The notes beneath the pieces were generated by a model. That model did no database searches and was not told the origin of the DNA. It worked only from the letters and a program-made list of their open reading frames with translations. 51,003 nt of DNA, from NCBI GenBank assembly GCA_902514605.1, contig CABXRL010000003.1, positions 1 to 51,003 on the forward strand, given 5' to 3'. Positions 32,962 through 39,352 of the stretch are shown here, piece after piece. This DNA comes from an uncultured Pelagibacteraceae bacterium (GTDB lineage Bacteria; Pseudomonadota; Alphaproteobacteria; Pelagibacterales; Pelagibacteraceae). A program made the translations under genes and the position numbers. Positions within the stretch are counted from its first letter, which is position 1, and every line of letters starts with the position of its first letter.

Positions 32962-34362
32962 ATGGCAGAAAAATTTCAAGCAGTAGTTATTGGCGGTGGA
33001 CCTGGTGGATACGTTTGTGCGATTAGACTTTCTCAATTAGGATTAAAAACAGCATGTATAGAATCTAGAGGTTCTTTAGGAGGCACTTGTTTAAATATTG
33101 GATGTATACCATCAAAGAGTTTACTAAATTTATCTGAAGAGTTTCATAAAGTTAAGAGTTTAGCAAATAAAGGAATAGAGGTAGGAGATGTTAAGCTAAA
33201 CCTAGATAAAATGATGAAGAGCAAGGATAAAGCTGTCACCGTTCTAACAAAAGGAGTCGAGTTTTTGTTTAAAAAAAATAAAGTTACTTATTTTAAAGGT
33301 TATGGCAGCTTTAAGTCTAAAAATGAAATTTTAATAAAAGATAATGAAAATAAAGAGACCATTATACAATCTGAAAAAACAATAATAGCGACAGGATCTG
33401 TAGCTTCTTCTTTGCCAGGAATTGAAATTGATGAGCAAAAAATAGTTTCTTCAACAGGCGCATTAAAGCTTGAAAAAGTTCCAAATAAAATGGTTGTTGT
33501 AGGAGGTGGTTATATTGGATTAGAAATGGGATCAGTTTGGTCTAGACTGGGTTCTGAAGTACAAGTGGTAGAGTTTTTAGATCACATCACTCCAGGTATG
33601 GATACAGAAATATCCTCAGAATTTATGAAAATTTTAAAGAAGCAAGGCATAAAATTTAACATGCAAAATAAAGTTGAATTAATCAAAAAAAATAAATCTG
33701 GGTTAGTAGTTTCGACTGTGGACAAAGATGGAAAAAAAAATAACTTTGATTGTGATGTGGTTTTAATCGCTGTTGGCAGAAAAGCAAATACTGAAGGCTT
33801 AAATTTAGAAGCAATAGGAGTTGAATTAGATAATAGAAAAAGAATAAAAACAGATAAATCATTTAAAACGAATTTAGAGAATATATACGCAATCGGAGAT
33901 GTAATCGTGGGACCAATGCTTGCTCACAAAGCTGAAGATGAAGGAATTGCGGTTGCTGAAAATATTGCAGGGCAATCTGGACATGTAAATTATGATACTA
34001 TACCAGGTGTCATATATACTACTCCAGAAGTTGCATCGATTGGAAAAACTGAAGAACAGCTAAAAGACTCAAAAATAAAATATAAAGTAGGAAAATTTTC
34101 ATTTATGGGTAATTCGAGGGCAAAAGCTATAGATGATGCAGAGGGTTTTGTGAAAATTCTAGCTGATGAAATAACAGATAAAGTTCTAGGTGCACATATA
34201 ATAGGTCCACATGCAGGCGAGTTAATTGCAGAAATTGGTATTGCAATGGAATTTGGTGCTAGTGCTGAGGATATCGCCCGTACATGTCACGCTCACCCAA
34301 CTTTTTCAGAAGCAGTAAAAGAAGCAGCCTTATCGGTGGATAAACGAGCAATACACTCTTAA
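32962..34362 (+). CDS. lpd: Dihydrolipoamide dehydrogenase
   Basis: [49 protein letters not shown]. Confidence 0.97.
34336..34362 (+). repeat. Left copy of ~27 bp direct repeat (lpd 3' end)
   Basis: gtggataaacgagcaatacactcttaa; near-copy at 37347-37374. Confidence 0.7.
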
Positions 34363-34429
34363 AATCTATTAAAATCCTATGTCAAAACGCGCTCTTACTA
34401 AAATTAAATAAAACTATAACAACATTTAA

Positions 34430-35428
34430 ATGACATCTTCTAATGACAAATTAAATTATAGAATTTCAGATGCAGCCGATATCAGTGAACCATGGGACAA
34501 GGACAATCAAGCCTGGTGGGACTGGTATGTTAGTCTTGCGAATAATGATGCTAAGGAATATGAAATTATTAACGCTGATCCCTTACCAGATATTGTAATA
34601 CCCAATGATGATGAAGTTATCTCAGAATTAGGTGAGCCCTACCATTTAACTATTGATCAAATTCATTTTTTTAAAAAAAATGGTTTTATAAAACTTAAGA
34701 AGGTTTTTTCACCTGGAGCCGTGCTTAAGCTTAGAACTGAATTAATTAATCTTTTAAAAGAAGAGTTTAAGGTTGATCCAGATAAAGGAGCACATAACCG
34801 TTTCCTTAGTCTTGAAATGATTTGGCCTGACAACGCACTTCTTCGTGCTTACGTATTATCACCTCGTCTAGGGCAAATTTCAGCAGATCTTCTTGATGTA
34901 CCAGCTGTTAGACTTTATCATGACAATGTACTAGCTAAACAAGCCGGTTGTGGTAGAACCCCATGGCATTTCGATGATCATCATTTTCCACTAGATACTA
35001 ATGACGTAGTTACCGCCTGGGTTCCAGCGCAACCAATACCTCTTGAGATGGGACCACTCACTTTTGCGTATCCACTCGACGTCCATGAATTAGTTAATGC
35101 TGTTACTTTTGAAAAGACTGGTACTGGGTATGATCGCGGGGTCTCAGATGTTTTTTCAAAAAATAATGTGAGTGTTAATGAAACTCCATTTGAACTAGGT
35201 GAAGTTAGCTTTCATCATAATTTAAACTTCCATACTGCCTCAAGTAATCGGACTAATCGTAGCCGAGTGGCTCTAGCCAATACTTATTATCGAGATGGAG
35301 CGAGAGTAGTTAATGCTCCCACGATGGTCTCGGGTGACTGGCAGAAATTTATGCCTAATGTCAAACCAGGTGATGTAGCTGCTAGTCCGTTAAATCCAAT
35401 TTGTTGGCCAGTTAAAGATAAATCATGA
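34430..35428 (+). CDS. Phytanoyl-CoA dioxygenase (PhyH)-like Fe(II)/2OG oxygenase
   Basis: 332 aa; WHFDDHHFPLDTNDVVTAWVPAQPI (HxD) and distal FHHNLNFHTASSNRTNRSRVALANTYY. Confidence 0.85.
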   Translation: MTSSNDKLNYRISDAADISEPWDKDNQAWWDWYVSLANNDAKEYEIINADPLPDIVIPNDDEVISELGEPYHLTIDQIHFFKKNGFIKLKKVFSPGAVLKLRTELINLLKEEFKVDPDKGAHNRFLSLEMIWPDNALLRAYVLSPRLGQISADLLDVPAVRLYHDNVLAKQAGCGRTPWHFDDHHFPLDTNDVVTAWVPAQPIPLEMGPLTFAYPLDVHELVNAVTFEKTGTGYDRGVSDVFSKNNVSVNETPFELGEVSFHHNLNFHTASSNRTNRSRVALANTYYRDGARVVNAPTMVSGDWQKFMPNVKPGDVAASPLNPICWPVKDKS

Positions 35429-36345
35429 AAGACGTGAATAATCAAGAAGGACTAAATTCGATCTGGACTGATAGTCTCACTCGTAATCTACGTCCTAATG
35501 GAAATGCGTTAATTGATCACTTAAGAACTGTACATCAAAAACATACTGGGTTTACCGAAGAGTGCGCAATTTCTTGTCGTGATGAAGTTGGGCGTAATAG
35601 TTATGAGTGGTTAGCTGAACTTGTACCTAACAATAGTAGTGTACGAGTATTAGATCTTGCTTGTGGTTCGGGGCCTTTATTAAAAATGTTATTTGATCGC
35701 AATAAAAATTTAAATTTAAAGGGTGTAGACATGTGTCCTGAAGAATTAGCATTAGCTAAGACTCGACTTATAAACAGTGGGACTAATTTTTTTGTGTCAA
35801 AAGCACAAAATTTGTCGGCAATTAGTGATAACTCTATTGATATAGTACTGTGCCATTGGGCTTTAACATTAATGGACCCGATAGCTCCTGTTTTAGATGA
35901 AGTTAGACGAGTTTTAACTTCAGAGGGTCGGTTTGCAGCATTAGTTGATGGACAAATGAATACAGCACCTGGTTATAAAGAGGTACACGATTTAATTTAT
36001 AGTTATGTGCAAGAAGAAATACCTAGTTATGGAAAGATTGATTTAGGCGATCCAAGGATAAGAGGATCCGAGAGCCTTAGCAATCTCATGCATAAGGCTT
36101 TTCCAAAGTCAAATATAACTATCGAATCAAATGTTGTGTCTATGGAGGGACCAGTTAATCAAGTAGCTGAAATTGCTGCAGGATTCTTCTATGCTGCATT
36201 TGTCTTGAGGCCAGATAAAAGAAAATTAATGATAACAAGTCTATCTAATCTTCTTGCTATATCTAAGGACAGCACAGATGGTGAAAGACAAGGACGATTT
36301 TCAATGCCAATTAGTCGTCTTCTAGTTATGCCTGATATAAAATGA
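35425..36345 (+). CDS. Class I SAM-dependent methyltransferase
   Basis: VRVLDLACGSGPLLKMLFDRN motif I; ATGA overlap with the upstream gene. Confidence 0.85.
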   Translation: MKDVNNQEGLNSIWTDSLTRNLRPNGNALIDHLRTVHQKHTGFTEECAISCRDEVGRNSYEWLAELVPNNSSVRVLDLACGSGPLLKMLFDRNKNLNLKGVDMCPEELALAKTRLINSGTNFFVSKAQNLSAISDNSIDIVLCHWALTLMDPIAPVLDEVRRVLTSEGRFAALVDGQMNTAPGYKEVHDLIYSYVQEEIPSYGKIDLGDPRIRGSESLSNLMHKAFPKSNITIESNVVSMEGPVNQVAEIAAGFFYAAFVLRPDKRKLMITSLSNLLAISKDSTDGERQGRFSMPISRLLVMPDIK

Positions 36346-37265
36346 AATCATTTTTACAAGAGGTAAGCCTAGGTTTAAGCAAAAAAAACAAGAAGTTAAG
36401 TTCAAAATGGTTTTATGACTTTCATGGATCAAAACTTTTTGAAAAAATTACAAAGTTGAAAGAATACTACCCAACACGAACTGAAAGAAAAATTTTAAAA
36501 GATAATAAAATTGAAATAGCTGACAAAATAGGCAAAAATGCAGTTTTAATTGAGCCAGGCGCTGGAGACATTAAAAAGATAGGTATTTTCCTTGGTAGCT
36601 TAGATAAGCCAAAAAAATATATACCTTTAGATATTTCTGAAGACTATATAAACAAAATATCTAAAGGTTTTAAAAAGAAATTTCCAAAAGTGAGTATTAC
36701 TCCAAAAGGATACGACTTCTCGATTAATAATAGATTGCCTTTTAAAATTAATTCATCAGAAAATGTAACTATTTTTTTCCCTGGATCAACTATTGGTAAT
36801 TTTGAAAAAAAAGCTGCTATTAAATTTTTAAAAATGCTTAAATCAAAATTTAAAGCAAAAAAAATTATCATCGGTGCCGACTTAGTTAAAGATATTCCGA
36901 CTCTTATTTCTGCTTACAATGATAAAAAAGGGGTTACTGCAAAATTTAACAAAAATATTTTACAAAGAATAAATACTGAACTGGGTGGGAATATAAAGTT
37001 AAATTCCTATAAACATTTAGCGATTTATAATAAATCAAAAAAAAGAATTGAGATGAGGTTAAGGTCTAAAAAAAAAAATTATATTAAAATTAATGGTTCA
37101 AAATATTTAATTAAAAAAAATGAAGAGATTCACACTGAAAATTCTCACAAATATACCATCAAATCCTTCAAAAACTTAGCTAATGAAGCTGGATGGAAAA
37201 TTAAGAAAACCTGGGTTGATGGCAAAAAACTTTTTAGTGTTCATTGTTTAGAGAGAACTCCTTAA
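36342..37265 (+). CDS. EgtD-like L-histidine N-alpha-methyltransferase family protein
   Basis: WFYDFHGSKLFEKITKLKEYYPTRTERKIL, IEPGAGDIKKIG, FFPGSTIGNF, EIHTENSHKYT; ATGA overlap with the upstream gene. Confidence 0.88.
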   Translation: MKSFLQEVSLGLSKKNKKLSSKWFYDFHGSKLFEKITKLKEYYPTRTERKILKDNKIEIADKIGKNAVLIEPGAGDIKKIGIFLGSLDKPKKYIPLDISEDYINKISKGFKKKFPKVSITPKGYDFSINNRLPFKINSSENVTIFFPGSTIGNFEKKAAIKFLKMLKSKFKAKKIIIGADLVKDIPTLISAYNDKKGVTAKFNKNILQRINTELGGNIKLNSYKHLAIYNKSKKRIEMRLRSKKKNYIKINGSKYLIKKNEEIHTENSHKYTIKSFKNLANEAGWKIKKTWVDGKKLFSVHCLERTP

Positions 37266-37346
37266 GTCTATCTGTTACATTTTTGGCATGTAAATAAAGA
37301 AGATTAGTTTGATCAAAAAAGCTTTGAGATACAACGATTATAGACT

Positions 37347-37374
37347 GTTGATAAAAAGAACAATACACTCTTAA
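37347..37374 (+). repeat. Right copy of ~27 bp direct repeat (lpd 3'-end remnant)
   Basis: gttgataaaaagaacaatacactcttaa; in frame reads LLIKRTIHS* versus lpd VDKRAIHS*. Confidence 0.7.
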
Positions 37375-37396
37375 TTTTTTTCCATATTATTTAAAA

Positions 37397-39352
37397 ATGA
37401 AATATCCGATTCTATTACCGAATATATTTAATCATCCTTTTACATATGAGAGCGATTTTGATTTAAAAATCGGTGAATACGTATCAGTACCATTTGGTAA
37501 AAGTAAACTTACTGGAGTGGTATGGGATAAATTAGAAGATAATGAGAAAAAAAAATTTAACTTAAAAAAAGTTTTTAAGAAATTAAAAGTTCAGCCAATT
37601 AAAAAAACAACCATAAACTTTTTGAATTGGTTTTCTGAATATAATATTATTCCAAAAGGTATGGCGTTAAAATTAATGCTGTTAAGCAATGGCGCAATTG
37701 AAGATAATAATAATAAAAATTTTAAACTCTTTAAAAACAGTATAAAAAAAAATTTGATAAAACTCTCTCAAGATCAAAAGAAATCTCTTAAAGAGATGAC
37801 TGTTTCAAACAATAAATTTAGAGTACATGTATTACAAGGAACAACTGGCTCTGGGAAAACTTTCGTTTATTTTGAGACATTGAAATCAATAATAAAGAAG
37901 GATTTTCAGGGTCTAATATTATTACCTGAAATAGGATTAACCAGCCAGTTTGAGCAAAAATTTGCTGAATATTTTGGTTTTCACCCAGCTGTTTGGCACT
38001 CAGGAATTTCTAAAAAGAAAAAAGAGATAATATGGAATGGAATTTCTAATGGTAAAATTCAGGTTATAATTGGAGCAAGATCGTCTTTATTTTTACCATT
38101 TAAAAAACTTGGAATAATTATTGTTGATGAAGAACATGATCAGTCATTTAAACAAGATGAGGGAGTAACTTACAACGCAAGAGATATGGCAATAGCTAGA
38201 GCATCATTTGAAAATATTCCAATAAATCTCATAACTGCAGTTCCGTCTGTTGAAACATATGAAAACATAAAAAAGGGTAAGTATAATTTATCTAGATTAA
38301 ACCAAAGATATAATAATGCTTCTCTACCTAACTATGAAATCATAAACTTAAATACATCTAAACTAGAAAAGCAATCTTGGATATCAAATGAAATTATTCA
38401 AAAAGTAAATTCTCATTTAAAAAAAAAAGATCAAGTTCTATTTTTTCTTAACAGAAGGGGTTTCTCACCTTATGTACTATGCAATAAATGTTATACAAAT
38501 TTTTCATGTCCAAACTGTAGTGTCAATTTAGTTTATCATAAAAATAAAAATAATTTGCTTTGTCATTACTGTGGATATAAATCTATTTTAAAAAGAGACT
38601 GCTCAAAAAATGGAAATTGTGAATTTATTTTCAGTGGTCCTGGTGTTGAAAGAATATCGGATGAAGTAAAAAAAAAATTTCCAGATAAGAAAATTGAAAT
38701 CTTTTCCAGTGACACAATGAACAAGAAAGACTCAATAGATAAATTGAATAGAATTATTAAAAATGAAACTAATATTCTAGTTGGAACCCAATTAATTTCA
38801 AAAGGATTTCATTTTCCGAGCCTAAATTGCATTGTAGTTGTTGACATCGATCTTTCATCTCATGGACATGATTTAAGAGGAGCTGAAAAAAATTTACAAC
38901 TTTATCACCAACTTTCTGGTAGAGCTGGCAGAACAGGAAAACCAGCTACAGTTTATTTTCAAACATATAATCATAATACTAAAATGATTGATGATATTAC
39001 CAATAAAAATCCTGATATTTTTCTGGACAAAGAATTAGAGATTAGAAAAAAAAATAAACTTCCTCCATTCCAAAGATTTATTGCATTGATACTTACAGGT
39101 GAAAACGAGCGCAAATTAGAAACAGAGGCCTTAGGATTTAAAAATTTTATAGAAACCAAAATTGATGGAAGGGTACTAGGTCCAGTAAATGCACCCATAT
39201 TTAGGTTAAAGAGAAAATTTAGAGTTAGATTACTTATAAGAGGTGTCAAATCTATGAAAATACAGAACTCAGTCGCAAAAATTATTCCAAATTATAAGTT
39301 TGCAGCTGGAATAAAACTTTCAGTTGATGTTGACCCTATAAACTTCAATTAA
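37397..39352 (+). CDS. priA: Primosomal protein N' (replication restart helicase)
   Basis: LQGTTGSGKTFVYFE, IIVDEEHDQSFKQDEG, zinc-binding Cys cluster CNKC..CPNC..CHYCG. Confidence 0.94.
   Translation: MKYPILLPNIFNHPFTYESDFDLKIGEYVSVPFGKSKLTGVVWDKLEDNEKKKFNLKKVFKKLKVQPIKKTTINFLNWFSEYNIIPKGMALKLMLLSNGAIEDNNNKNFKLFKNSIKKNLIKLSQDQKKSLKEMTVSNNKFRVHVLQGTTGSGKTFVYFETLKSIIKKDFQGLILLPEIGLTSQFEQKFAEYFGFHPAVWHSGISKKKKEIIWNGISNGKIQVIIGARSSLFLPFKKLGIIIVDEEHDQSFKQDEGVTYNARDMAIARASFENIPINLITAVPSVETYENIKKGKYNLSRLNQRYNNASLPNYEIINLNTSKLEKQSWISNEIIQKVNSHLKKKDQVLFFLNRRGFSPYVLCNKCYTNFSCPNCSVNLVYHKNKNNLLCHYCGYKSILKRDCSKNGNCEFIFSGPGVERISDEVKKKFPDKKIEIFSSDTMNKKDSIDKLNRIIKNETNILVGTQLISKGFHFPSLNCIVVVDIDLSSHGHDLRGAEKNLQLYHQLSGRAGRTGKPATVYFQTYNHNTKMIDDITNKNPDIFLDKELEIRKKNKLPPFQRFIALILTGENERKLETEALGFKNFIETKIDGRVLGPVNAPIFRLKRKFRVRLLIRGVKSMKIQNSVAKIIPNYKFAAGIKLSVDVDPINFN

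Follow-up and report, generated by a model that had tools for sequence, protein, structure and literature searches.

In ergothioneine biosynthesis, L-histidine is trimethylated by EgtD to yield hercynine. The gene cassette described here shares this step and, in one SAR11 group, even carries EgtB in the same operon, but most carriers of the cassette lack EgtB. Moreover, the PhyH-type oxygenase (PhyH) and the methyltransferase (MT) encoded next to EgtD are, to our knowledge, part of no known ergothioneine pathway. Other described systems resemble individual components. EctD is a PhyH-family enzyme which hydroxylates a compatible solute and possesses a strictly conserved 17-residue signature around its iron site (PMC3979721). 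It is similar to the cassette oxygenase as a hydroxylase of small solutes with an HxD...H iron site occurring in saline habitats, but its partner genes are different. SnoK and SnoN are by sequence the closest solved structures; however, both are enzymes of nogalamycin synthesis in Streptomyces with a polyketide substrate, the similarity is confined to the barrel, and they lack a DNQAWWDWY segment which is present in the cassette protein. MysH, which functions in the synthesis of mycosporine-like amino acids, is a PhyH-family member acting on a small zwitterionic, amino-acid-type substrate, but the similarity is weak (E=3e-4), and we know of no EgtD partner for this enzyme. Finally, the DMSP synthase DsyGD similarly couples a PF08241 methyltransferase to a second enzyme and serves a marine osmolyte; whereas its DsyD domain belongs to PF04115 (PMC11306096), the partner in the cassette is PhyH. 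A function in DMSP synthesis by DsyG/DsyD was rejected, as the PhyH studied here matches only PF05721 and DsyD represents another family. It had been proposed that no pathway with this combination of three genes has been characterised. Accordingly, none is described in the searched literature, which covers subscription journals thinly, and the same literature yielded nothing relevant on ergothioneine in SAR11 or Pelagibacter, nor on hercynine in marine bacterioplankton.

Organization of the cassette

The cassette is located in a stretch of 51,003 nucleotides from an uncultured Pelagibacteraceae bacterium (the window), whose genome assembly comprises 0.73 Mb at 52% completeness. Its nearest relatives occur in the Pelagibacteraceae (SAR11). 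The original prediction of three open reading frames joined by ATGA overlaps and placed between lpd (32962-34362) and priA (37397-39352) was confirmed in the sequence at all positions (Table 1), as were the family assignments to PhyH (PF05721, E=8e-13), MT (PF08241, E=9e-16) and EgtD (PF10017, E=3e-98).

Table 1. Features of the cassette and positions within the window.
Feature	Position	Strand	Remarks
PhyH-family Fe(II)/2-oxoglutarate oxygenase gene	34430..35428	+	332 aa; PF05721
Class I SAM-dependent methyltransferase gene (MT)	35425..36345	+	306 aa; PF08241
EgtD, L-histidine N-alpha-methyltransferase gene	36342..37265	+	307 aa; TIGR03438, PDB relatives, substrate-site residues
ATGA, PhyH stop/MT start overlap	35425..35428	+	sequence
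ATGA, MT stop/EgtD start overlap	36342..36345	+	sequence
PhyH codons of H180-x-D182, two of three predicted iron ligands	34967..34975	+	invariant in relatives
PhyH codon of H268, the remaining predicted iron ligand	35231..35233	+	invariant; aligned with SnoK
PhyH codon of R279, predicted 2-oxoglutarate arginine	35264-35266	+	invariant; aligned with SnoK
lpd-priA interval holding the cassette	34363..37396	.	about 20-26 bases in several cassette-free relatives

The oxygenase and the methyltransferase

The window PhyH scores 49.6 bits against PF05721 (gathering score 22) and matched none of the NCBIfam models. Its nearest solved relatives are SnoK, SnoN, human PhyH and MysH. Residues H180, D182, H268 and R279 are invariant among 32 PhyH relatives; the H180-x-D182 motif is retained down to 46% identity and aligns with the HxD of SnoK/SnoN. 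The proposed Fe(II)/2-oxoglutarate enzyme thus keeps both its iron triad and the 2-oxoglutarate arginine, and by family score and ligand residues the protein is predicted to be a PhyH-type oxygenase of this class. Outside the barrel, the N-terminal residues N26-Q27-A28-W29-W30-D31-W32-Y33 are likewise invariant in the 32 relatives, and the DNQAWWDWY segment is little changed across true PhyH orthologs and missing in the paralog L182. Within SAR11, PhyH proteins are 78-91% identical to that of the window. A suspected premature stop in PhyH of loci L088 and L089 turned out to be the ordinary C-terminus. Identity with EctD was also rejected: at the position of the EctD signature, FxWHSDFETWHxEDG(M/L)P, the window protein reads TPWHFDDHHFPLDTNDV, and no NCBIfam model matched.

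Structure prediction, which had been suggested as a basis for substrate docking, succeeded for one of the two proteins: MT was modelled with confidence (pLDDT 88), but the model of PhyH, for which alignment diversity was low, was poor (pLDDT 47). The listed NCBIfam matches to MT are all far under cut-off and assign it to no named family. In Foldseek searches, the MT model had neighbours with TM scores of about 0.45-0.6 in many different families, which include O-, N-, C- and S-methyltransferases; the target atom can therefore not be read from the fold. Thus, compared to the named families of small-molecule methyltransferases, MT has neither an NCBIfam match above cut-off nor a single clear structural relative. 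A conserved pair of cysteines, Cys47 and Cys51, hinted at an arsenic-type methyltransferase; this candidate was dropped, as Cys47 is replaced by Ile in L179 and L180 and Cys51 by Ser in L177.

Conservation and linkage of the three genes

Searching 84,980 species genomes with PhyH yielded 157 relatives, of which the best 80, mostly from SAR11 single cells, were analysed. PhyH and MT are neighbours on the same strand at all 80 loci, with MT directly adjoining PhyH in SAR11 and located directly next to it or past one extra gene elsewhere. The two genes overlap at 69 of these best 80 loci, at 44 by exactly 4 bases. EgtD directly follows MT at 47 loci (with a 4-base overlap in 44 of the 47) and lies within about 3 kb at six further loci of non-SAR11-like type, so that altogether 53/80 have EgtD beside PhyH-MT. 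For 22 of the 27 loci lacking a linked EgtD, the gene is present elsewhere in the genome, and hence 75 of the 80 carriers possess EgtD; a genome-wide search did not find it for L051, L056, L079 and L090 (SAR11 drafts) and L098 (Rhodosalinus sediminis). Random adjacency, which would have spoken against the predicted gene set, is contradicted by these numbers, and the cassette is a real, conserved and selected gene set rather than a chance neighbourhood. The idea of a three-gene unit holds in that the functional association is real; however, its core consists of PhyH and MT, whereas EgtD is exchangeable and often encoded elsewhere in the genome.

The association with EgtD is also visible at the genome level. 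Among the window genome and its relatives (101 genomes), EgtD is rare, occurring in nine, and PhyH-MT occurs in four, all of which have EgtD; in each of the remaining five EgtD genomes, EgtB adjoins EgtD as the usual ergothioneine pair. Among 385 alphaproteobacterial species, all six with a true PhyH ortholog possess EgtD (five unlinked), compared to 114/385 overall, and a genome holding only a 31% PhyH paralog lacks it. Hypergeometric odds, computed by hand and ignoring kinship, are about 3e-5 for the 101 genomes and 6e-4 for the 385 species and are indicative only. No additional strong PhyH ortholog was found in a scan of 399 Pseudomonadota genomes; apart from SAR11 and a small number of lineages from marine or saline habitats, the PhyH-MT system is rare.

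Genomic sites and mobility

Six or more locations harbour the cassette in SAR11, as judged from neighbouring genes named by eye. Apart from the lpd-priA arrangement of the window, it is located behind gshA-gshB and two transporters, where EgtB often comes first (EgtB-PhyH-MT-EgtD), after a prpDBC-like set, beside gyrB and at other positions. An arrangement neighbouring the gshA-gshB type and the site between an MFS-gene region and pheT comprise PhyH-MT only. Several relatives without the cassette have lpd and priA closely spaced (Table 1), and in others different cargo separates the two genes. The gap is variable in SAR11 (L209-L220): L213, from the complete genome G012, carries a PF16867 DMSP lyase, and sugar-aminotransferase-like and methyltransferase-like genes were identified by eye as further cargo. 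An amidinotransferase-like gene, also named by eye, lies near the cassette at about 11 SAR11 loci (e.g. L028, L034, L035, L046, L048, L055); it is located downstream of the cassette and probably belongs to the local region.

Between the window and other lpd-priA copies, the divergence at fourfold sites amounts to 0.26-0.44 for the cassette and 0.54-0.66 for the flanking sucB, lpd, priA and atpA. Since the cassette is less diverged than its flanks, the three genes moved together after their surroundings had diverged, indicating that the cassette is horizontally mobile as a unit and younger than its flanks. Omega values of about 0.02-0.27 in nearly all pairs reveal purifying selection on all three genes. 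No carriage of the cassette was found in phage records and viral contigs. Plasmid-borne relatives in Streptomyces, Emticicia and Priestia were discarded as distant paralogs in different gene contexts, and neither MT nor the second methyltransferase MT2, described below, has a relative among the plasmids searched.

Carriers outside SAR11

MT2 is present in all 11 tested carriers outside SAR11 and in none of 16 SAR11 carriers. Several of the non-SAR11 carriers are represented by contigs of MAGs, which might have been binned incorrectly. MT2 belongs to PF13489, is weakly similar to N-terminal proline methyltransferases (L093, L096-L099, L177, L179-L181) and is usually encoded between or beside PhyH and MT. 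A kinship with histamine methyltransferase, suspected by eye, was unsupported by a sequence search of the PDB. Because MT2 is absent from SAR11 carriers, the SAR11 form of the cassette represents a shortened version, perhaps with a simpler product. Sodium:solute symporters or MFS transporters are located near several of the non-SAR11 clusters; in two lineages the symporter of MT2-type clusters lies near cobT/cobS-like genes identified by eye (L179:14006-17001, L191:369-3789). Rhodosalinus sediminis (G131; L098:9016-14931) possesses a PhyH-MT2-MT cluster and no EgtD in its genome. By eye, this cluster is followed by an apparent TRAP-type transporter, which might import a precursor.

EgtD and its product

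The third gene had been regarded as an EgtD acting on histidine, and both its score and its histidine-site residues mark it as a canonical EgtD. The protein scores 349.2 bits against TIGR03438, above the equivalog cut-off of 290.9 bits, its relatives in the PDB are EgtD enzymes from mycobacteria (E=2e-43), and ten out of ten substrate-site residues match those of the mycobacterial enzyme (Y39, F47, Y56, T163, N166, Y206, T213, M252, E282 and S284), for most of which the roles have been described (PMC8593015). It is well supported at the level of family score and site residues that the window EgtD would turn histidine into hercynine. Two of the ten positions, Met252 and Glu282, are known to govern the choice of the amino acid. 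Met252 is changed to Gly in the EgtD of the pheT-site group and to Leu in that of L095, L064 and L074, and therefore the substrate of these enzymes could differ. The pheT-site EgtD (L183:6195-7097, L184:6282-7187, L185, L186) is long-branched and encoded between a gene for a solute-binding protein and ABC genes of the glycine-betaine type (OpuAC, permease).

In a tree of EgtD proteins, the SAR11 partners of PhyH-MT fall in four places, represented by the type linked to PhyH-MT, a long-branched type encoded next to a solute-binding protein and an ABC transporter of the glycine-betaine type, the G016 type adjoining EgtB, and a type near-identical to EgtDs from genomes without PhyH. As the partners are polyphyletic, the shared need is a reaction and not one particular gene. 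On the simplest reading, PhyH-MT appears to require the product of EgtD, whichever EgtD is present, and hence probably hercynine.

An alternative is that PhyH and MT modify ergothioneine. This would be in line with the EgtB-PhyH-MT-EgtD operons at about 20 SAR11 loci, the EgtD-PhyH-MT-EgtB operon of L095, and the EgtB-EgtD pairs elsewhere in the genome in L094 and the L048/L055/L057 group; genomes without EgtB would then have to import ergothioneine, use another sulfur-insertion enzyme, such as EanB, or be incomplete assemblies. However, EgtB occurs above cut-off in only 11/50 carriers. It was found neither in the window genome, which is 52% complete, nor in eleven further genomes of the lpd-priA type, nine of them among the 50 carriers and the other two being G032 and G035 (78% and 86% complete), and draft incompleteness does not easily account for these eleven absences. 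We therefore consider a role restricted to ergothioneine unlikely: with EgtB missing from most carriers, hercynine and not ergothioneine is the common denominator. Where EgtB resides inside the cassette operon, the product might occur in a thiolated form.

Discussion

Based on the sequence comparisons, we consider it fairly probable that the cassette encodes a pathway, mobile by horizontal transfer, for the production of a tailored histidine betaine. In the proposed route, EgtD would use three SAM to trimethylate the alpha-amino group of L-histidine, giving hercynine, which PhyH might then oxidise with Fe(II), O2 and 2-oxoglutarate, in the simplest case by hydroxylation of the carbon beside the imidazole. 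For a member of the PhyH family acting on a compatible solute, EctD provides the precedent. MT may subsequently methylate the new hydroxyl group or one of the nitrogens of the ring. Where EgtB belongs to the operon in SAR11, the tailoring may run beside ergothioneine or on it. Outside SAR11, MT2 probably contributes an extra step, and the sodium:solute or MFS transporters may move the product or a precursor. More specifically, it might be hypothesized, with somewhat less than even confidence, that some SAR11 bacteria produce a histidine betaine not described so far, which is hydroxylated and carries an additional methylation, and that the pathway to it branches from hercynine, dispenses with the sulfur step of ergothioneine synthesis and spreads between lineages as a small cassette.

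It is also conceivable, albeit rather improbable, that PhyH and MT use an unrelated substrate and that EgtD co-occurs for regulatory or ecological reasons only, such as a shared saline or oxidative habitat. The Rhodosalinus cluster without EgtD and the unlinked position of EgtD in many carriers would fit such a scenario, as would the breadth of the MT and PhyH families, which gives no clue to the substrate. This is countered by the genome-level association, which extends from SAR11 to further alphaproteobacteria and involves EgtDs of separate origins, and by the side-by-side placement recurring in different lineages. Alternatively, the cassette EgtD might methylate an amino acid other than histidine, with PhyH and MT tailoring the resulting betaine. 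The exchanges of Met252 in some carriers are compatible with this, but the complete histidine site and the equivalog score of the window EgtD render it very unlikely. A breakdown route, in which PhyH hydroxylates hercynine beside the ring and cleavage yields glycine betaine and an imidazole aldehyde, finds chemical precedent in trimethyllysine, which is 3-hydroxylated and then cleaved by a retro-aldol reaction en route to carnitine (PMC13245600), but is highly improbable, as neither an aldolase nor an aldehyde dehydrogenase is a constant neighbour of the cassette, MT would be left without a role, and the cell would spend three methyl groups beforehand.

Roles as an osmolyte, antioxidant or metal ligand had been suggested for the product; most likely, the tailored histidine betaine would serve as a compatible solute of the betaine type or as a protectant. 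Few bacterial groups in the surface ocean are as abundant as SAR11, whose genomes are very small; a pathway which such genomes retain under selection and which has been transferred time and again should therefore matter to the cell. If true, the new betaine would be among the candidate constituents of the dissolved organic nitrogen in the sea, and its synthesis would explain what EgtD is used for in the absence of EgtB.
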